This document shows positions 3,832 to 24,466 of a DNA stretch of 24,561 bases, in pieces. The position numbers and the translations under genes are program-made. Where the stretch lies: positions 1 through 24,561 of IMG/VR virus record IMGVR_UViG_3300012954_000074; one strand, given 5' to 3'. Under the pieces are notes generated by a model. That model had not been told where the DNA came from and did not search any database. It was given only the letters and a program-made list of their open reading frames with translations. Position 1 is the first letter of the stretch, and each line of letters begins with the position of its first letter. The DNA comes from a virus.

Positions 3832-3867
3832 ACACTAAAATAAATATTATCATGTGTCAAATATTAT
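3832..3867 (-). promoter_or_regulatory. candidate promoter and operator between divergent units
   Basis: On the minus strand a perfect TTGACA (3855-3860) is followed after 17 bases by a weak TAGTGT. The same stretch holds a 9-base direct repeat AAATATTAT at 3842-3850 and 3859-3867, start-to-start 17 bases apart. Tandem repeats are how RHH repressors often bind, and an RHH gene starts 50 bases away on the plus strand, so this may be its operator. Both roles are inference. Confidence 0.4.
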
Positions 3868-3919
3868 TTTGACCGTAATAAGATTTGATTATCTTTCTGT
3901 AGTATGTTATTTTAAAAGA

Positions 3920-4075
3920 ATGACACAGCAACAAGAACAAGTAAGAATTAATTTATTGTTGGATAAAACAGATGTTGATTTGATTAATAAATGGCGTTCA
4001 GAACAAAAGGACTTTCCCAATCGCTCCGAAGCTATTCGTCGATTATTAGCCTTGGGGCTAAAAAAGAGCGATTGA
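3920..4075 (+). CDS. small ribbon-helix-helix DNA-binding protein
   Basis: A 51-residue protein that fits the RHH/CopG-Arc pattern over its full length: a beta strand (QVRINLLLD), helix A (TDVDLINKWRSEQ) and helix B with the conserved N-R-S-E-A-I-R-R-L-L motif. Such dimeric proteins are usually repressors. The reading frame can be extended to a GTG at 3854, but the ATG at 3920 starts exactly at the conserved domain and is preferred. No Shine-Dalgarno is visible. A promoter-like pair (TTGATT 3885-3890, TATTTT 3908-3913) would put the transcript start almost at the ATG, so the mRNA may be leaderless. It runs opposite to the surrounding tail genes and precedes a secreted-protein gene. Confidence 0.7.
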   Translation: MTQQQEQVRINLLLDKTDVDLINKWRSEQKDFPNRSEAIRRLLALGLKKSD

Positions 4076-4128
4076 CTGAAGAAATTTTAGGTTGTAACTC
4101 TGAATCCTTACAACCAAATTGTTCAATT

Positions 4129-4779
4129 ATGAAAACTTTATTTATTGTAGCTCTCGTCTCTGTTGTGCTTATGTTTGATTCTTCCTCTGCAGAGCCGCTT
4201 AAAGAGAAAACAATAAGCACAGGTGAGACAGGATACAGCAGAGAAACTTTAGAAAACCTAGAGAAACTATCATTTGCTGATTTTATGATGGCAAAAAAGA
4301 AAGATTTTAAAGGTTGTGATGAGTCCGCTAATGAGATGCGATTATGCCTTAAGCTGCTAAATGATAAGGTAAAGATTTACCAGAATTTAAAAAGCGTCAA
4401 GCTTACTAAGAGTGACAGCGCTAGATTAAAACAATATAAAAGCAAAATAATTAAATCTCAGGTCATGGGTTTCCCCATAATTAGAGATCAGCTTGGGCCA
4501 GCACTTAGAAAAATGCTTTGGGATTTTGATGGTACTGCTTCTACAAACGGCAATAGCTTTACCAACCTTACAATTATAGCTCCTGACTTTGCTGCAAACA
4601 GAAATGTAAAGCAGTTCCACGAATCCATTATGCCATCTCTTGAGCAGGCCCGTATAAAAAAAGTTATATACAAGTGGTTTAAATATGATGAGGAGCCTAA
4701 TACATTTAAGTTGAAGCCTCTTAAAGACTCTGACTTAGCTACATTTGATCAATACGGAAGGTATGTAAAGGTTGACTAG
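4129..4779 (+). CDS. unrecognised secreted or periplasmic protein of 216 residues (phage cargo gene)
   Basis: Function not recognised. The frame is open from 3991, but the ATG at 4129 begins a clear signal peptide: MKTLF, a hydrophobic core IVALVSVVLMF, then SSSA before EPLKEK as a likely signal peptidase I site. The mature part is lysine-rich and hydrophilic, with a cysteine pair spaced about 13 residues apart (KGCDES, LRLCLKL). The stretch LWDFDGTAST resembles a HAD phosphatase motif I but lies mid-protein and lacks the other motifs. It sits on the plus strand within a minus-strand tail module, the hallmark of a phage 'moron' whose product changes the lysogen's envelope (inference). Confidence 0.6.
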   Translation: MKTLFIVALVSVVLMFDSSSAEPLKEKTISTGETGYSRETLENLEKLSFADFMMAKKKDFKGCDESANEMRLCLKLLNDKVKIYQNLKSVKLTKSDSARLKQYKSKIIKSQVMGFPIIRDQLGPALRKMLWDFDGTASTNGNSFTNLTIIAPDFAANRNVKQFHESIMPSLEQARIKKVIYKWFKYDEEPNTFKLKPLKDSDLATFDQYGRYVKVD

Positions 4780-13046: not shown

Positions 13047-14099
13047 TTACATAGAAGCTATAAACTGCAGACCTAAACATCTGCTTTCTGCAGAGCGTGT
13101 CCAAGTTCCAGCTGTAGCTAACTGAGTTTTGTTTGGTGAGTAATTGTAATCATTAGCTGCACCTTGAAGTAAGTTATTACAATATCCTTTTGGATGAATT
13201 ACAAACTCATCGTAGAAATAGTGTTGGAACTCCTTATTGCACGGTAAAAACTCTGGGTGGTAAGAAGGGTCAGCACAACCCTCACCATAACCAAAAGTAC
13301 CATTTCTAAATAAGATAGAAATATAACCATCACCAGGCGTACCTGGAGTTACCATTAATGCTGGATGATCACTTACAATCACGCGATAGCCATTCCATAT
13401 TGGTAGGCGAATCTCTACACCGTTGATAGTTTCACAACAATAATCAGATACATTATTAGCAATTACATTCTTTGCTACTTGGCTATGCATGATAATACCA
13501 TCAAACTGGCCAAAATTAGCACCACTATTAAATGCAGCTGTGTTTAGTGCATCAAATGTAAATACGTTATCTGGTGCAGTATTACCACGCACATCAACAT
13601 AGTTACCTACGCCAGCACCTAAAGCAACCTCAGAGTTATATATACCTCTTAAAGATGCCATTAAGAATGACTGCTTATCTTTTGCTAAAAAACCACCTAC
13701 TGTTTCTAGGATAACATCGCCAGCTGTCATTTCATCACAGCCTAAGCAAATATTTTCTAAGCGACTTTCGCTAAAACATTTTTTAGTAGAATACTTAATT
13801 ACACGATCTACTGTAGAAAGCACTTCATCACACTCACACGGGTCAGCATCTGGTAATTGAGTATCACCGCTACCACCAACACCTGTGTAGTCAACATCTT
13901 CAAAATGCTCTAGTGCCTCATAATAAGGTACATTAGTTGCAAAGCCCTTACCTCGGGCAATACTTCCAAACATTTCTTCCTGGCTGATTATACCAGAATT
14001 CCATATTGCCAGATCAGATTGAGCTGAACAATCGGGGCGCAAACTATAATTTGCATACGTTTCTCCGCAGATTAAACCTGCTACTTTACTATTAGCCAT
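13047..14099 (-). CDS. major capsid protein
   Basis: A 350-residue protein after the scaffold gene, the usual place, with features of HK97-fold capsid subunits: DLAIWNSGIISQEEMFGSIA near the N-terminus, LETVGGFLAKDKQSFLMASL (spine-helix-like), and a C-terminal FYDEFVIHPKGY segment seen in coat proteins of this group. It carries 13 cysteines (for example DPCECDE, NICLGCDE, YCCETI), far above normal for capsid proteins. AAGGAGAAC precedes the ATG at ideal spacing and a strong terminator follows, both fitting high expression. The subfamily is not certain. Confidence 0.8.
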   Translation of the reverse strand: MANSKVAGLICGETYANYSLRPDCSAQSDLAIWNSGIISQEEMFGSIARGKGFATNVPYYEALEHFEDVDYTGVGGSGDTQLPDADPCECDEVLSTVDRVIKYSTKKCFSESRLENICLGCDEMTAGDVILETVGGFLAKDKQSFLMASLRGIYNSEVALGAGVGNYVDVRGNTAPDNVFTFDALNTAAFNSGANFGQFDGIIMHSQVAKNVIANNVSDYCCETINGVEIRLPIWNGYRVIVSDHPALMVTPGTPGDGYISILFRNGTFGYGEGCADPSYHPEFLPCNKEFQHYFYDEFVIHPKGYCNNLLQGAANDYNYSPNKTQLATAGTWTRSAESRCLGLQFIASM

Positions 14100-14153: not shown

Positions 14154-14963
14154 TTAAAGCTTCCAATCGGCAGGATTTCTGCCCGCCTCTTTGATAAAAC
14201 GACGCGCTTTTTCAGGGTCGTTCTTGATCAATCTTGATTGAGCTGTTACAGCACCATATTGCTGCTTAAATGGGTTAGGCTCATTGCTGCCTGCACCCTG
14301 ATTAGAGCCGCTTACACCTGCCCCAGTGCTTGCTGGATATAGGTAGCTGCGCTTCTCTTTAAAAAAGGTTTTGAAATACTCCTCAGACTGCATGTATTCA
14401 CCCGCCCTATCGGACTGCGAACTAATTAAAATTCCACCTGAATTGTCTCTAAAACCCCATTTGCCATCTTGGTCTTTTTGAATCTCTTGTTCTGCTAATG
14501 CTACTGCATCGCCTACAGCCTCATTTCTTACACCAGCCGCAATTGCAGCATTTTTCAGGCCATCAATGACTGTATATTGGTAAAGCTGTTTATCCCTTTC
14601 CTGAATAACCAACTCAAGCTCAGCAACCTTAGAATCTCTGTCTTCAATTGCTTTCTTAAAACGCCTTTGCTCAGCATCTTTTACGCCTTGTATAGCTTTC
14701 TCAAGATCGCCATTTTCAATAGCTTGCTTTTGCTCCTGAGTTTCAGCTTTTTCTGCTAATTCTTGCAGCTTACTAAGATCAATACCTTCAAACTGCTTAA
14801 GCTTGTCGGTAGCTGCCTTTTTTTCTGCCTTTAAATCAGCATTATTGCGCTTTAACCCCTCAACTTGCTTTGTTACTGCATCCTTAATGGCTGCATCTAA
14901 CTCTGCTTGTGTAAAGGTTGATTCGGTAGCTTCTGCTACTTCTTTTTTTTCGTCTTCTGACAT
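14154..14963 (-). CDS. capsid scaffold protein
   Basis: A 269-residue protein that is almost entirely charged coiled-coil: TQAELDAAIKDAVTKQVEGL, DLKAEKKAATDKLKQFEG and a long KAIEDRDSKVAELELVIQER helix. This is the standard composition of phage scaffolds that guide procapsid assembly, and it lies directly before the capsid gene. The start is ATG 14963, with AGGAG about 8 bases upstream. An in-frame ATG at 14999 would add a basic, poorly supported extension. The C-terminal region (DPEKARRFIKEAGRNPADWK) resembles the capsid-binding helix-turn-helix of scaffolds. Confidence 0.8.
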   Translation of the reverse strand: MSEDEKKEVAEATESTFTQAELDAAIKDAVTKQVEGLKRNNADLKAEKKAATDKLKQFEGIDLSKLQELAEKAETQEQKQAIENGDLEKAIQGVKDAEQRRFKKAIEDRDSKVAELELVIQERDKQLYQYTVIDGLKNAAIAAGVRNEAVGDAVALAEQEIQKDQDGKWGFRDNSGGILISSQSDRAGEYMQSEEYFKTFFKEKRSYLYPASTGAGVSGSNQGAGSNEPNPFKQQYGAVTAQSRLIKNDPEKARRFIKEAGRNPADWKL

Positions 14964-15052
14964 TTGTTTACTCCTGTGTTGTTGTTGAATTTTACGCACA
15001 AGTAATCGCCCCCAGCGTCTGCTGTGTGGTCATTAATCACTTGATAAAATTG

Positions 15053-16150
15053 CTAAATTTCAGCCAGCCTAAAAGCCTCTGGCTCTCGTTTCATAAGCTG
15101 ACTTAAGTTTAAGGTGTTACCCTTACGATCTACAAACTTGTCTACACTAAGATTACCTTGCCTAAACAACTTTGCCTTTGTTTTACCCAAAACCTCCTCA
15201 GCGGTTTCTAATGGCTGTTTTGATAACCATTGCCCATATGATAGAGTATCGGGTATTTTACCATCTAGCGCTTGTTTCTGGCCTTTTGTAAGACCATCTA
15301 CACCCAAGCTTCTATAACTATAAAGCACTGGTATGCGCGTACTCCGGCAATTAATGTGCAAAGGTGGGAATTGCCCCTCCCCTACTTTATAAATAGTACC
15401 ATCTAAACTAGCGCATATATGACTTGTTGCACTGTCCAGTACGGCACGATAAATCTCTTCTTTAACTAGGTCGCTGTTAGCCATGTAGGCCGCACTGCGA
15501 GCTTTGTTAGCTGTATGATTAACTGCAGTTCTTATATATACCGCAGCTGTAACTATACTTGCTCGCAAAGCCTCTTGCTTTACCCTGCTAACTACCTGCC
15601 TATCTGATTCAGCATTTAATAACCCAGATTTAACTGAATTATTTATTGCTTGAGCTTTACGCTCTGGCCACCTTTCTAAAAAAGGTTTTAATCTAACCAC
15701 ATCATCAGAGCGCTTATTATTAAGCAATGCTAATGGTGTAGCCCAAACTAGATTATTAATGTCTGTTTGTTTGGCAGTATTTACCGCTATACCTACAGGT
15801 GGTAGCGCCTTTTCTAAGCTGCGTTTAGCAAAATCTGCCTCATAGCTTGAAAACTCCCTTAATTCAACTGCAAGAGCATCACTAAATATTTTCTTAGCGC
15901 TTTCTTGCGTGGCTTTTAAAAAAGCTAAAAACGCTTTATGTGCATTTGTCTTAGCTGGTGAACCAGCTGCAACTATACTTCTATCTGCGCTTGATAGCCT
16001 AGCTAACCTAGTAGCCAATTTATCCGCTATTACAGAATCACCATCTTGCAATATTTTGGTAAACTTATTTACTAAGCCGCTAGCAAACCTCTGCAAATAA
16101 ATTTGATGCCTAGTGCCGAAGTCTAATAATACCTCGTTACTTGTCTGCAT
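15053..16150 (-). CDS. Mu gpF-type head morphogenesis protein
   Basis: A 365-residue protein with the diagnostic C-terminal motif of the Mu gpF / SPP1 gp7 minor head family: AVLDSATSHICASLDGTIY, then GQFPPLHINCRSTRIPVLY, with the conserved C, D-G, H and C-R positions. The upstream part is helical. The family acts in head assembly near the portal, often carried inside the capsid. In most phages the gene follows the portal directly; here a plus-strand cassette of over 400 bases separates the two. Confidence 0.85.
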   Translation of the reverse strand: MQTSNEVLLDFGTRHQIYLQRFASGLVNKFTKILQDGDSVIADKLATRLARLSSADRSIVAAGSPAKTNAHKAFLAFLKATQESAKKIFSDALAVELREFSSYEADFAKRSLEKALPPVGIAVNTAKQTDINNLVWATPLALLNNKRSDDVVRLKPFLERWPERKAQAINNSVKSGLLNAESDRQVVSRVKQEALRASIVTAAVYIRTAVNHTANKARSAAYMANSDLVKEEIYRAVLDSATSHICASLDGTIYKVGEGQFPPLHINCRSTRIPVLYSYRSLGVDGLTKGQKQALDGKIPDTLSYGQWLSKQPLETAEEVLGKTKAKLFRQGNLSVDKFVDRKGNTLNLSQLMKREPEAFRLAEI

Positions 16151-16169
16151 CTAACTCTCTAGGCTTAAT

Positions 16170-16197
16170 AGTTTTTTAAGTGATTTTATGTTATAAT
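16170..16197 (+). promoter_or_regulatory. extended -10 promoter of the zinc-ribbon cassette
   Basis: TATAAT (16192-16197) preceded by TG plus one base forms a near-perfect extended -10, with only a weak -35 region. It points away from the gpF-type gene and towards the zinc-ribbon gene, opposite to all neighbouring phage genes. The expected transcript start is near 16204. Confidence 0.65.
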
Positions 16198-16202
16198 GCT
16201 TC

Positions 16203-16440
16203 TGTAACTTTGCTTCTGCTTTACATCTCCTGAAACGATAGGGAGGTGGCTTGAGTTTATCTCAAGTACACAAGGAAAGTAGAAGCTGTTGTCAATCTGC
16301 CCCGCTTGGGGCTTTAGGGTTTAAGTTATCTGAACCCATGGTGCAAGGACATCAGAAGTGCAAATAGCACAACAGATAGCAAATACTAGGCAAGGAATTA
16401 ACCTTGCTCCAGCCACTCATTATGGGTGGAAGGAGGCCTT
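16203..16440 (+). ncRNA. structured leader or non-coding RNA upstream of the zinc-ribbon gene
   Basis: About 240 bases with dense, strong base pairing. Positions 16212-16222 pair perfectly (11 bp) with 16276-16286, closing a three-way junction with hairpins 16225-16247 and 16249-16267. Then GCCCC-GCTT-GGGGC, an 8-bp stem 16325-16332/16373-16380 enclosing 16358-16370, a GCAAGG/CCTTGC hairpin (16390-16407), and a 7-bp stem 16413-16429 ending one base before AGGAGG (16431-16436). No known riboswitch or ncRNA family is recognised. The last hairpin could expose or hide the ribosome-binding site. Confidence 0.6.
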
Positions 16441-16575
16441 ATGGGGCCTTTTTACTTTAAACCGGCTAAAAAGCCGGAAAAAAGAGGGTGCGCCAAATGC
16501 GGCGCCCCTTCTAGCACACCACTGTGTGATACGTGTGCTAGAGAAACTCTAGGTCTTCCTCCGAGGAAGGCCTAG
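16441..16575 (+). CDS. 44-residue zinc-ribbon miniprotein
   Basis: A short protein: a basic N-terminus (MGPFYFKPAKKPEKRG), then CAKCGAPSSTPLCDTCARE, two CxxC knuckles eight residues apart, the pattern of a zinc ribbon. AGGAGG lies 4 bases before the ATG. It has its own promoter and terminator on the strand opposite the phage late genes. The coding sequence is itself full of hairpins: CTAGCACAC / GTGTGCTAG at 16511-16541, CTAGAG / CTCTAG, and an 11-bp stem 16549-16575 over the stop codon. Protein and RNA may therefore both matter. Small zinc proteins in phages include regulators such as Mu Com, but no specific homology is seen. Confidence 0.65.
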   Translation: MGPFYFKPAKKPEKRGCAKCGAPSSTPLCDTCARETLGLPPRKA

Positions 16576-16582
16576 GGTTTTT

Positions 16583-16613
16583 ACCCCCTACCTTGTGAGG
16601 GGGTATTTTTTTT
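16583..16613 (+). terminator. strong terminator of the zinc-ribbon cassette
   Basis: ACCCCCT, an 8-base loop and AGGGGGT are followed by A and eight Ts. It ends the plus-strand transcript 2 bases before the converging portal gene. No T-run follows on the minus strand, so late phage transcription can pass. Confidence 0.9.
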
Positions 16614-16615
16614 AT

Positions 16616-17995
16616 TTACAGTAAGTTAGTATCACTCTCAACGCGCTCTTGTATCTCTTCATTACTGGTTTTTTGAGCTATTATACCAGCATCACGTAAA
16701 TTATTACGGTATGTATTAATATCAATTATACCGCCATTGTAAGCGGCTTGTAGTGCAGTAATCTCTTGTGGATTGAGCTTTCTATCAAAAAACTCTTTAC
16801 ATAGCTCAAAGCTAAACTCCTCTGGCTTATAACCAGCCCACTCTGCCCATATTCGTAAGGCCTTTGTTAAAGCATCGCTAATATTACCTGCTAATGCATC
16901 TAAAGTAGCTACATGGCCACCTTGTGCAATTATAGCCGTTTCAGCAGCTGTATTAACCAAGTTACCACTAGATATTAAACCAGCCTTTAAAAGCATATCT
17001 TGCTTAATATCGTCTAACTCTTGTTGAAGCTTATCAGCACCAACTCCGCTTATCTCAGCAAATTTTATCTCACTATTACCCGGTAATATACCGCCATTAC
17101 CACCCAGCTTTACGCTCATGTCCTTAAACATGTCTTTATAGTCCTCAGGGCATGAATCTAGTGCAATAACATCTAGTGCAATATATGGAGTTGCCAATGC
17201 AGTTAAATGCAGTGTATGCCGCTTATCTGCACTTGTATTGTACCAAGCCTTAGCGTCGCTAGCTAATCCATATAATGGAGGCCTAGCAACATCACAATTA
17301 GCACCAAAAGGGCTAACAAATACAAAAGGTATATAATCTAACCTCTTACCAGCTATTGTTGGGTAAACTGGCTCACCTCTAACATATCTTGGCTTACCGG
17401 TAGTCTCATTTGATAACTCACACCTTTCAATTGCATATTGGCCGTTTTCATCAAGATATAGTAATAATCTGCATTTTGAATGACCATCTTCTAGCAGTGG
17501 GCAACATTCACGCTGCTCTTCTAAAACTAATAACTTTAATTGGCCGTTAACCTGATGCCAATGTTTTATGCTAAATACATCATAAGAAACTATCTTAGGA
17601 TGGCCTAGCTCTTCATCAAAATCTACTAACAAACCATGCCTAGCATAACTAGCTACATCAGCTGTTAGCTTTCTAGCAAGGTCATTTATATCAACACCTA
17701 TACCGCCTAAATTACCAGGCAACTCAACACCATCAGACAATTTAATTGTAGGGTCTTTTTTAAACAGCCTACCAACTAAGGTAATAATACTAGTGGCCGT
17801 TATATCTAAAAATCTAGCGCGGCTTTTGTACTCATCATATGCCCCCTCATCCATTCCACTTGGTTTAGGCAGGTAAGGAATGCCATTTTCTTTTATAACA
17901 CATTCACCATCTAATACGTCACGGATTAGCTCCCAACACTCACAATATTTAGTATACTGCGAATGCTCCTCGCCTATGTGATCTTCCCGTATCAT
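16616..17995 (-). CDS. phage portal protein (DUF4055 type)
   Basis: A 459-residue protein in the portal position after terL. Signature regions are YDEYKSRARFLDITATSIIT, LVGRLFKKDPTIKL, DINDLARKLTADVASYARHG followed by LLVDF, and a C-terminal AETAIIAQGGHVATLDALAG segment, all typical of the DUF4055 portal-like family. The dodecameric portal is the DNA entry ring. The ATG at 17995 is preferred over a TTG at 18007; either overlaps the end of terL by about 50 bases. It has about ten cysteines, including paired ones (YCECW, ECCPL). Confidence 0.8.
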   Translation of the reverse strand: MIREDHIGEEHSQYTKYCECWELIRDVLDGECVIKENGIPYLPKPSGMDEGAYDEYKSRARFLDITATSIITLVGRLFKKDPTIKLSDGVELPGNLGGIGVDINDLARKLTADVASYARHGLLVDFDEELGHPKIVSYDVFSIKHWHQVNGQLKLLVLEEQRECCPLLEDGHSKCRLLLYLDENGQYAIERCELSNETTGKPRYVRGEPVYPTIAGKRLDYIPFVFVSPFGANCDVARPPLYGLASDAKAWYNTSADKRHTLHLTALATPYIALDVIALDSCPEDYKDMFKDMSVKLGGNGGILPGNSEIKFAEISGVGADKLQQELDDIKQDMLLKAGLISSGNLVNTAAETAIIAQGGHVATLDALAGNISDALTKALRIWAEWAGYKPEEFSFELCKEFFDRKLNPQEITALQAAYNGGIIDINTYRNNLRDAGIIAQKTSNEEIQERVESDTNLL

Positions 17996-19352
17996 GTGAT
18001 GTATCAAATGTAAATTTAGGCATCTCCTTTAAGCCTTTAGGTGGCGCTGACATGTCAGCTATTGCGTCCATTGTTGGGTCTACTTGATCGTCATGCCTAC
18101 CTTGTGGAAATTGGCTAAATTCAGCTAAATACTCAGAAAGCCATGTGGCGTTTTTAGGCAAATAAACATATTCACTTTCTATCCACCCTAACACATCGTT
18201 AGCTCTTAATTGCTTATCTGTACTGCGCTTTATAGACTCCACAGGGAACCTAGCTTGGTGTTTAATTGCTTGTATTAAGCCAGTGCCACTAACTTTATCC
18301 TCAATGGCCATTCCTCTAAGTTTTGCAGGATTAGCACCATAATGCTTTTGCCAAAATGCAACCGCCTGTGTATGTAATTGTGGGGCTTCCCACTTACCCC
18401 TAATTTGATCAATCAGGTAAATCTTGCCATTTTTACCCTTGCCCCAGCATTGAAATACTGAGTAATCATTAGACTGCCCTGTCTTTTGAGCTGTATCAGC
18501 GTATATTTTGCGATACTCTAATTCAGGTAGTACATCGTAATATTGCCACCACTCAGCTTTGAACATCTGGCCTTCTGGCTTAACCTTCCAGTTACCCTCT
18601 AACAACCTCTTACGCTCAACTTCAGGTAATGCCTTTAAATTTGCTATATAGCTAGGATCATTCTTTAATAAGATTTCGTTATCTTGGATTGTAGCATTTA
18701 TAAATGTAAAACTCTTAGGCTCACAATCACTACCAAATTGCTCAATAAGTGGGTCTCTGCTATCTGCCCAGTGTAATACCCCATTATTCCTAACAAAGTA
18801 CCTTACCACTCCACTACGCTCTGGAATCGCATAACCATCTTTACCAATCCACCAATCTATTAGATCTAGTACCCAACCATCCTCTGGGTTAGTCGTAGCT
18901 CTTATATATGGCTTTATTCCGCATACACTACGATTGCGGCTTAACATGTACCAAAATTGACTCTCAGTAAAATGCGTCAATTCATCAAATATTATCAAAG
19001 GTATTTGTGACCCCTGATAATCTAGTTTATTTTTTTCATGCTCTAAATGGGCAAACTTAACTTTATTGCTATTATCAAAATGCCACTCAAGCACACTCTC
19101 TTTTGGTTGAGCACCTAATAACGGGTAAATATTACTAGAAGTATCCCACAAACCACCTTCATTTCTTATTTGTGGACTAGTGCGTCTAAATATTACCGCA
19201 CCAAAACCTTTAACCGTTGTTATATGCCTTAATACCTCAATAAGTATTGCATATGATTTACCACCACCTGCTGCACCGCCATATATAGCTATATCAGCAC
19301 TTGTGTTTATAAAATCACTTTGCGCTCCCTCCTGGGCCCTTATCTCTACCAT
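17949..19352 (-). CDS. terL: terminase large subunit
   Basis: A 467-residue packaging motor with an ATPase domain (Walker A GGAAGGGKSYAI near residues 25-36; Walker B IPLIIFDELTHF near residues 119-130) followed by a C-terminal nuclease domain (IYADTAQKTG, MAIEDKVSGTGLIQ, GRHDDQVDPTMDAIADM) carrying the expected acidic residues. All key residues look present. It docks on the portal and pumps DNA into the procapsid. Its 5' end overlaps the small terminase gene by 38 bases and its 3' end overlaps the portal gene. Confidence 0.95.
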   Translation of the reverse strand: MVEIRAQEGAQSDFINTSADIAIYGGAAGGGKSYAILIEVLRHITTVKGFGAVIFRRTSPQIRNEGGLWDTSSNIYPLLGAQPKESVLEWHFDNSNKVKFAHLEHEKNKLDYQGSQIPLIIFDELTHFTESQFWYMLSRNRSVCGIKPYIRATTNPEDGWVLDLIDWWIGKDGYAIPERSGVVRYFVRNNGVLHWADSRDPLIEQFGSDCEPKSFTFINATIQDNEILLKNDPSYIANLKALPEVERKRLLEGNWKVKPEGQMFKAEWWQYYDVLPELEYRKIYADTAQKTGQSNDYSVFQCWGKGKNGKIYLIDQIRGKWEAPQLHTQAVAFWQKHYGANPAKLRGMAIEDKVSGTGLIQAIKHQARFPVESIKRSTDKQLRANDVLGWIESEYVYLPKNATWLSEYLAEFSQFPQGRHDDQVDPTMDAIADMSAPPKGLKEMPKFTFDTSHDTGRSHRRGAFAVY

Positions 19353-22250: not shown

Positions 22251-22736
22251 ATGACAGGCGCAAGAAAGGGGAATATACTTAACTTAGACTGGAAACAAAT
22301 TGATATAGAAAACAAGATAATTAAGTTAAATATAAAATCTCAAAAAGAAGGGGGGAAGTTGCATATTATACCAATCATAAAACCACTAGAGTTATTATTA
22401 AAAACAATGCAACCTCAATCTAATGGCCCAGTTTTTTATCACAAAGGTAAGCCCTTAAAAGAGATCAAGCGCTCATTTAATACTGCATGCAAAAAAGCTG
22501 GTATAGAAAACTTTAGATTTCATGATTTAAGGCATACATGTGCAAGTTGGCTAGTACAAGAAGGCACCTCCCTAGCAGTAGCAAAAGAGTTGCTAGGGCA
22601 TAAAGATTATTCTACAACACTGAAGTATGCACATCTTAATAAAGATGTGGTTCATAGTGAGGTAGAGAAAGTTATGGGCACGAAATTGGCACAAAACATT
22701 AAGAAGCCGATTGACTTAGAACCTTCAAAGCCTTAG
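22251..22736 (+). pseudogene. truncated tyrosine integrase (catalytic domain only)
   Basis: 161 residues covering only the catalytic half of a phage-type tyrosine recombinase. Arg-5 sits in [12 protein letters not shown], Lys-36 in the beta-hairpin, His-91 and Arg-94 in [11 protein letters not shown], His-117 in ELLGHKD and nucleophile Tyr-126 in TTLKYAHL, so the active site is complete. The arm-binding and core-binding domains (normally 150-200 residues) are absent, and homology stops within a few codons of the ATG. It probably cannot integrate on its own. It ends 12 bases before tRNA-Arg, consistent with a former insertion at that tRNA. Confidence 0.85.
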
Positions 22737-22748
22737 TGAGTATAGCGT

Positions 22749-22825
22749 GCAGCCGTAGCTCAGCTGGATAGAGCATCAGATTCCTAATCTGAGGGTCATA
22801 GGTTCGAATCCTATCGGTTGCGCCA
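22749..22825 (+). tRNA. tRNA-Arg (anticodon CCT)
   Basis: A full cloverleaf of 77 bases. The acceptor stem GCAGCCG / CGGTTGC (one G-T) is followed by encoded CCA, the D-arm GCTC / GAGC, the anticodon stem TCAGA / TCTGA with loop TTCCTAA, and the T-arm ATAGG-TTCGAAT-CCTAT. The CCT anticodon reads AGG. It looks intact and functional, and such tRNAs are common integration sites. Confidence 0.95.
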
Positions 22826-23958: not shown

Positions 23959-24132
23959 TTTATTTATGAAGAAATCCTTACTTAGGGAAGGTTACTCTAA
24001 AGCACTACACCAGTTAAGCAAGCCCCTTAACCTAAGTAGCGTACCCCATAAAAAGCATATAAAATACAATCACTCAAGATGGAATAATTAGAGAATCGTT
24101 ATAAAGGAGGTATAAAATTTTACTGGATTTCA

Positions 24133-24165
24133 CACAAAAGAAAAGGCCACCCGAAGGTGACCTTT
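24133..24165 (-). terminator. UUCG-type terminator of the cysteine-rich peptide gene
   Basis: On the minus strand AAAGGTCACC, the stable tetraloop TTCG and GGTGGCCTTT pair over 10 bp (one G-T), followed by TCTTTTG. It lies 25 bases past the peptide stop codon. Confidence 0.9.
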
Positions 24166-24189
24166 CCTAATCAGCAAGAAGGTGGGGAG

Positions 24190-24336
24190 CTATCCTCCGC
24201 ACCCCCTTACTATGCAGACGTGACTTCCGTCACAATCTGCAGCGTAACGAACACATGAGTGCCCGTTACTACAAGTGCCCGAACAAAATTCAGGCACTGG
24301 AGCGCTTTTTGAATCTTTTGCTTGTGCTGTTTGCAT
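24190..24336 (-). CDS. 48-residue six-cysteine peptide (possible bacteriocin or metal-binding peptide)
   Basis: A short gene with full expression signals: AGGAG about 9 bases before the ATG and a strong terminator after it. The product has a cysteine-free leader-like part (MQTAQAKDSKSAPVPEF), then a core with six cysteines and many glycines (CSGTCSNGHSCVRYAADC, then DGSHVCIVRGCGG). Leader plus Cys/Gly-rich core ending in GCGG resembles modified or disulfide-bonded peptides, but no modifying enzyme, transporter or immunity gene is in view. There is no hydrophobic signal sequence. A small metal-binding protein is the main alternative. Confidence 0.65.
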   Translation of the reverse strand: MQTAQAKDSKSAPVPEFCSGTCSNGHSCVRYAADCDGSHVCIVRGCGG

Positions 24337-24386
24337 CTTTGTACTCCTACCACTGTGGATAATATAGTGATAATGTCTTGAGTTCT

Positions 24387-24440: not shown

Positions 24441-24466
24441 GGCATAATGGTAAATTGTGGGTCGCT
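24441..24466 (+). repeat. 26-bp repeat, right copy
   Basis: Matches the reverse complement of 73-98 at 25 of 26 bases; the single change weakens the inner palindrome (ATTGTG instead of ATTATG). It lies upstream of the cysteine-rich peptide promoter region. Confidence 0.6.

Follow-up and report, generated by a model that had tools for sequence, protein, structure and literature searches.

What is a hairpin-dense cassette of opposite polarity doing in the middle of a phage head module? The window, the whole stretch of DNA analysed here, is a virus record of 24,561 bases. It contains a truncated tyrosine integrase (161 aa, 22251-22736), ending 12 nt before a tRNA-Arg(CCT) gene (22749-22825), as well as a Rha/KilAC antirepressor and a MazF-type toxin; no known defence proteins were found. 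This gene content suggests that the contig is a prophage or prophage remnant, from an unusual bacterial virus that is probably integrated. Exact matching of the tRNA-Arg(CCT) over 52 nt returned nothing from the species-genome collection, which may cover the host poorly. The head module lies on the minus strand and comprises TerL (17949-19352), the portal protein (phrog_145, DUF4055; 16616-18007), a gpF-like head morphogenesis protein (phrog_241, Phage_Mu_F; 15053-16150), a putative scaffold assigned from its position (14154-14999) and the major head protein (phrog_247; 13047-14099). A MuF toxin identity was considered for the gpF-like product and rejected, because along its length it is an ordinary minor head protein. 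The genes of this module are tightly packed, and its sole long gap is the 465-nt interval between portal and gpF (16151-16615), which holds the cassette.

As the earlier note had claimed, this interval carries a complete, self-contained plus-strand transcription unit (16189-16613), and each of the parts listed there was located: an extended -10 element, a leader of about 237 nt with an 11-bp closing stem and a three-way junction, AGGAGG, a mini-ORF for a 44-aa C4 protein with a CxxC-x8-CxxC motif, and an intrinsic terminator. The extended -10 element TGTTATAAT (16189-16197) is a sequence prediction that puts the transcription start at about 16204. No good consensus -35 element lies upstream of it, which explains why a two-hexamer promoter scan did not list it and counts against the reading that we favour below. 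A scan of the collection with the promoter pattern gave six matches, all attributable to chance and inside coding genes, with no cassette downstream of any. Near the left end of the contig, a promoter on the minus strand (TATAATGCTGCTCATAACTTTG, 113-145) resembles the cassette promoter and its initial bases (TATAATGCTTCTGTAACTTTG, 16180-16212, plus strand). Near both contig ends there is also a 26-nt inverted repeat, AGCGACCCRYAATTTACCATTATGCC (73-98 and 24441-24466), which contains the palindrome CATAAT-N5-ATTATG and may be an operator or else a repeat dispersed in the host.

The first leader domain (16212-16286), a three-way junction on which MFE and centroid folds agree, is closed by a perfect 11-bp stem (16212-16222/16276-16286), has arms at 16224-16248 and 16249-16267, and reaches a local energy of -31.9 kcal/mol. 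The second (16287-16381) folds into a multibranch loop with four short hairpins, closing at 16287-16293/16375-16381; the segment 16205-16385 folds with a z of -5.2. Two more leader hairpins follow (16389-16429; about 16389-16408 and 16413-16429). The last of them had been described as abutting the ribosome-binding site, and the hairpins do run to 16429, but the Shine-Dalgarno AAGGAGG (16430-16436) is itself paired, with the first codons supplying the other side of an additional 10-bp hairpin (AAGGAGGCCU/GGGCCUUUUU, 16430-16439/16444-16453). This hairpin (16430-16453), which also resembles a weak terminator, holds the start codon (ATG at 16441) in its loop, UAUG. The spacing between Shine-Dalgarno and AUG is short, only 4 nt, and this too counts against the favoured reading. 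The ORF (16441-16575; 44 codons plus stop) encodes MGPFYFKPAKKPEKRGCAKCGAPSSTPLCDTCARETLGLPPRKA, a K/R/P-rich sequence with a CxxC-x8-CxxC motif of zinc ribbon or knuckle type. Four consecutive hairpins (16455-16484, 16485-16509, 16510-16542 and 16543-16581) occupy the coding region and the bases just past it (16455-16581), and the terminator (16582-16613) consists of an 8-bp stem (16582-16605) followed by TTTTTTTT, with its run of 8 T, ending 3 nt short of the portal stop.

The predicted structure goes well beyond chance. The 409-nt RNA 16205-16613 folds at -185 kcal/mol, compared with -123.1 ± 5.3 in dinucleotide shuffles (z -11.8; reached by 0/100), and the leader alone has a z of -5.6. In a GC-corrected scan with 120-nt windows, the cassette is the most structured plus-strand place on the contig. 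Pairing was said to continue through the coding part, and it does: the MFE of that part is -62.2 kcal/mol, against -39.6 ± 4.1 for synonymous permutations that keep both the protein and the codon set unchanged (z -5.5; none of 1000 reach it), and its z is -7.5 against codons drawn from the phage's own usage. By comparison, the synonymous test gave a mean z of -0.4 (sd 1.0) for 42 control segments of phage genes. Related and pattern-matched phage loci totalling 2.05 Mb contained 519 Shine-Dalgarno-preceded mini-ORFs; their z averaged -0.45 (sd 1.26), with five below -4, and the 38 of these with at least four cysteines had a mean of 0.06 and a minimum of -2.4. Folding is good on the minus strand too (z -5.8; -153 kcal/mol), and the difference of -32 in favour of the plus strand exceeds that in shuffles (-10.9 ± 6.3), so the G-U pairs (16 of 138) seem placed for a plus-strand RNA. 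Because the natural frame beats 1000 of 1000 synonymous rearrangements and the plus strand outfolds the minus strand beyond what composition yields, these results point to selection on the RNA.

Is the protein then merely a by-product of the fold? Structure-preserving randomisations gave an ATG ORF of at least 25 aa with two CxxC in range in 31 of 100,000 cases, and one that also had a Shine-Dalgarno in only 2 of 100,000, figures that overstate the case for the protein because the C4 criterion was set after the ORF had been seen. Even so, the rarity makes it unlikely that the miniprotein is such a by-product. Its best Pfam match, zn-ribbon_14, is weak and sub-threshold (E 0.0021); the context CAKCGAP...LCDTC is ribbon-like, and the zinc knuckle of archaeal eIF2-gamma matches weakly (E 0.25). 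Pfam at E up to 10 returned just zn-ribbon_14, RecR_ZnF, NMD3 and PolC_DP2, all weak, and PHROGs returned nothing. A C4 zinc-ribbon miniprotein, presumably zinc-binding, is a plausible identity. An AlphaFold model made without relatives was of unusable quality (mean pLDDT 67) and counts against the favoured reading. A type I toxin-antitoxin system was rejected, since the protein lacks hydrophobic character and the insert showed no promoter facing the other way. The earlier note had offered a choice between a regulated protein and a structured RNA with an incidental peptide. Both signals are present, and the choice largely dissolves, because the protein alone would not call for so much RNA structure and the structure alone would hardly produce such a C4 ORF by chance. 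It is likely that the sequence is constrained for protein and RNA alike.

Searches for relatives of the cassette returned nothing. That no described RNA family would match it was confirmed with Rfam 15, in which only the tRNA-Arg in the contig passed the gathering score; relaxed thresholds added weak chance matches at the terminator end and in the coding hairpins. DNA similarity to the cassette was limited to short chance matches in phages and was absent from plasmids, and relatives of the miniprotein were found neither in phages, plasmids and IMG/VR nor in 50 related phage records. A covariance model built from the single sequence found only the cassette itself in 1.05 Mb of relatives' DNA, and a DNA pattern scan for the zinc ribbon gave no orthologue among the matches listed. 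This lack of an RNA or protein homologue in Rfam, Pfam, PHROGs, IMG/VR, phages and plasmids counts against the favoured reading, and it is to be read knowing that IMG/VR may omit near-identical records. Relatives of the phage itself are at most about 47-53% identical in TerL. None was found in GTDB genomes, which were covered through exact TerL 8-mers and the exact tRNA pattern and may thus still contain the cassette, and a portal scan for phage relatives was empty. Among the matches listed, many otherwise unrelated phage proteins in IMG/VR share a C-terminal zinc-ribbon-like tag, CVSCGxPxxxxFCxFCxxEE (loci L105-L224, e.g. L110, L138, L149, L157 and L196), a recurrence that merits separate study.

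Inserts downstream of portal in related phages are a point that the earlier note had missed. The closest relative with both flanking genes (L080) is distant, with identities of 27% in portal and 25% in gpF, a low relatedness that counts against the favoured reading. It keeps the order TerL-portal-gpF, with portal and gpF overlapping by 32 nt. In a simple gene-order survey of 60 TerL relatives, an antisense ORF directly followed the assumed portal gene in eight; four have the look of genuine genes starting at the portal stop, and the remaining four are, in our view, doubtful calls. The four, all on the minus strand of their records, encode 185 aa (L029, 8193-8750), 188 aa (L071, 11013-11579; phrog_2266, the only PHROG match among them), 199 aa with a signal-peptide-like start (L033, 10743-11342) and 81 aa (L053, 3549-3794). 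They are unrelated to the cassette, and their RNA is ordinary, with z values of -0.3 to -1.8 against -10.6 for the cassette in the same shuffle, indicating that hairpin density is a property of the cassette and not of the site. No cassette-like element was found at the portal-gpF junction in the relatives examined. The antisense position downstream of portal is an apparent hotspot for accessory inserts.

Since that position holds other inserts in related phages, a moron is the best frame for the cassette. Like a moron, it is bracketed by a promoter (the extended -10, predicted from sequence) and a terminator of its own, it deviates in composition (GC 0.47 compared with 0.38 for the contig), and it separates two genes that are neighbours in relatives, as seen from the overlap in L080 and the inserts in L029, L033, L053 and L071, all of them distant. 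In our view it is quite probable that the cassette is a moron, that its protein is real and that its RNA fold has been selected. Elsewhere on the contig, within the minus-strand tail module, there is another plus-strand stretch (3854-4779), in which a small RHH-like ORF (3854-4075) overlaps a 262-aa ORF without a Pfam match; it is possibly a second moron.

The pid moron of phage P22 offers the nearest likeness. It encodes an 86-aa protein behind an AAGGAG Shine-Dalgarno and has dgo as its host target. Like the cassette gene, it is a small ORFan of opposite polarity to the late genes around it and is followed by a Rho-independent terminator of its own, and in related phages its site is either unoccupied or filled by other inserts; unlike for the cassette, neither a zinc ribbon nor a hairpin-dense mRNA is mentioned in the available part of its description (PMC3573128).

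How might such a gene work? Host sigma-70 polymerase would probably transcribe the cassette while the head operon is silent, presumably in lysogeny, and the product would be a short, almost fully folded mRNA encoding the 44-aa C4 zinc-ribbon miniprotein. In all modelled transcripts that reach at least 16450, the Shine-Dalgarno region (scored over 16432-16438) has a mean unpaired probability of 0.01-0.02, compared with 0.25-0.29 in shorter ones; the Shine-Dalgarno is thus predicted to be sequestered by pairing, as in a thermometer or riboswitch. With the ribosome-binding site tied up in 10 base pairs, the AUG confined to the hairpin loop, and two folded leader domains ahead of it, translation would be expected to be low and gated. 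Because of this sequestration, we favour translation that would be controlled by the leader, the putative switch suggested earlier. The gate might consist in the coupling of transcription and translation, as the Shine-Dalgarno would be partly free only until 16450 is made, in a trans factor, or in binding of the miniprotein to its own RNA. A precedent for a small phage protein of this kind acting at a start-site structure is Com of phage Mu, a C4 zinc-finger protein of 62 aa that acts at an RNA hairpin beside a translation-inhibiting structure (PMC6483171). The cassette has, judging from its ORF, a C4 zinc-finger motif (CxxC-x8-CxxC) in a short, basic protein of 44 aa, and its start site, like that of mom, would be gated by mRNA structure (PMC6483171). 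Membership of the Com family, or of another phage zinc-finger family, was found neither with Pfam at E up to 10 nor with PHROGs, and whereas Com activates another gene, mom (PMC6483171), no mom-like gene follows the cassette ORF. By analogy, the miniprotein may work like Com. The reading that we favour as a whole, a moron expressed in lysogeny whose gated translation yields a C4 miniprotein, is on balance somewhat more probable than its failure, and we infer that the product serves in regulation or in modifying the host.

The main rival to a gated moron is a function at the level of the RNA with the protein as partner. The folded 410-nt transcript would then itself be the effector, as a sponge, an antisense, a protein-binding RNA or a superinfection factor, and the miniprotein would be secondary, either minor or cooperating, perhaps in an RNP with its own mRNA. 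A structure that is unbroken from the leader across the start codon and ORF to the terminator, that in the coding region is far above what the protein demands, and that favours the plus over the minus strand is what such an effector would show, yet a C4 ORF with a Shine-Dalgarno is very unlikely to arise by chance on such a fold, no Rfam family matches the cassette, and the single-sequence covariance model found no related RNA in the 1.05 Mb of relatives' DNA. Short folded RNAs that also encode a short protein are known in SgrS/SgrT and RNAIII/hld, whose ORFs account for only a minor share of the RNA; the cassette ORF, by contrast, is filled with hairpins from end to end, and its transcript has no known base-pairing target. 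A precedent is STnc6030, a prophage transcript opposite to late genes, as the cassette's is, which is expressed in lysogeny as an antisense RNA and leads to superinfection exclusion; it overlaps its target genes in antisense (PMC7067206), whereas the cassette transcript is wholly intergenic and ends before the portal gene. We regard an RNA effector as a possible but doubtful reading.

Other explanations fare worse. The location between portal and gpF, together with the good folding of the minus strand (z -5.8), would suit an insert acting in cis on the head operon, where it would adjust the amount of portal relative to gpF and later head proteins, either through its hairpins in the operon mRNA or through transcription converging from its promoter. 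This is distinctly unlikely given that folding clearly favours the plus strand, which also has the promoter, Shine-Dalgarno and terminator, that terminator-like sites on the minus strand are weak, and that the junction lacks such an element in the relatives examined. We give even less credence to a DNA-level element, that is, a palindrome cluster for recombination, packaging or replication with RNA structure as a side effect: the many perfect, back-to-back stems and the presence of a second hairpin-dense mini-ORF on the contig (see below) agree with it, but the 16 G-U pairs among 138 and the strand asymmetry favour RNA, and the stem sequences all differ, with no repeat family found. The packaging-related RNA once proposed for this locus is not borne out, as nothing points to packaging. 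It is equally improbable that the cassette is an orphan fragment of recently captured foreign DNA without present function; it has no homologues in any collection searched and a GC unlike the contig's, but its promoter, Shine-Dalgarno, ORF and terminator are all intact and the RNA and protein signals occur jointly.

The earlier note had also missed a second hairpin-dense, Cys-rich mini-ORF, on the minus strand at 24190-24336 (unit about 24135-24380). It encodes 48 aa (MQTAQAKDSKSAPVPEFCSGTCSNGHSCVRYAADCDGSHVCIVRGCGG), has a Shine-Dalgarno and a strong terminator, and contains four back-to-back hairpins in frame; 24090-24380 folds with a z of -7.6, and the frame has a z of -5.0 in the synonymous test. 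Apart from an ORF overlapping the cassette, it and the cassette ORF are the only Shine-Dalgarno-preceded mini-ORFs on the contig below -4. The two share only short similarity, probably by chance, and the second lies beyond the tRNA, in what could be phage or host DNA. They might be members (16204-16613, plus strand; about 24135-24380, minus strand) of a class of phage mini-genes in which the entire mRNA is a selected hairpin chain working with its own Cys-rich miniprotein, as a self-binding RNP or a dual-function RNA, a generalisation that we think improbable and put forward tentatively.

The apparent hotspot downstream of portal is a practical place to seek unannotated accessory genes. Morons are common; an RNA fold and a 44-residue C4 protein apparently constrained in the same 135 bases would amount to compact double coding and make the cassette a candidate case of a zinc miniprotein that regulates itself.
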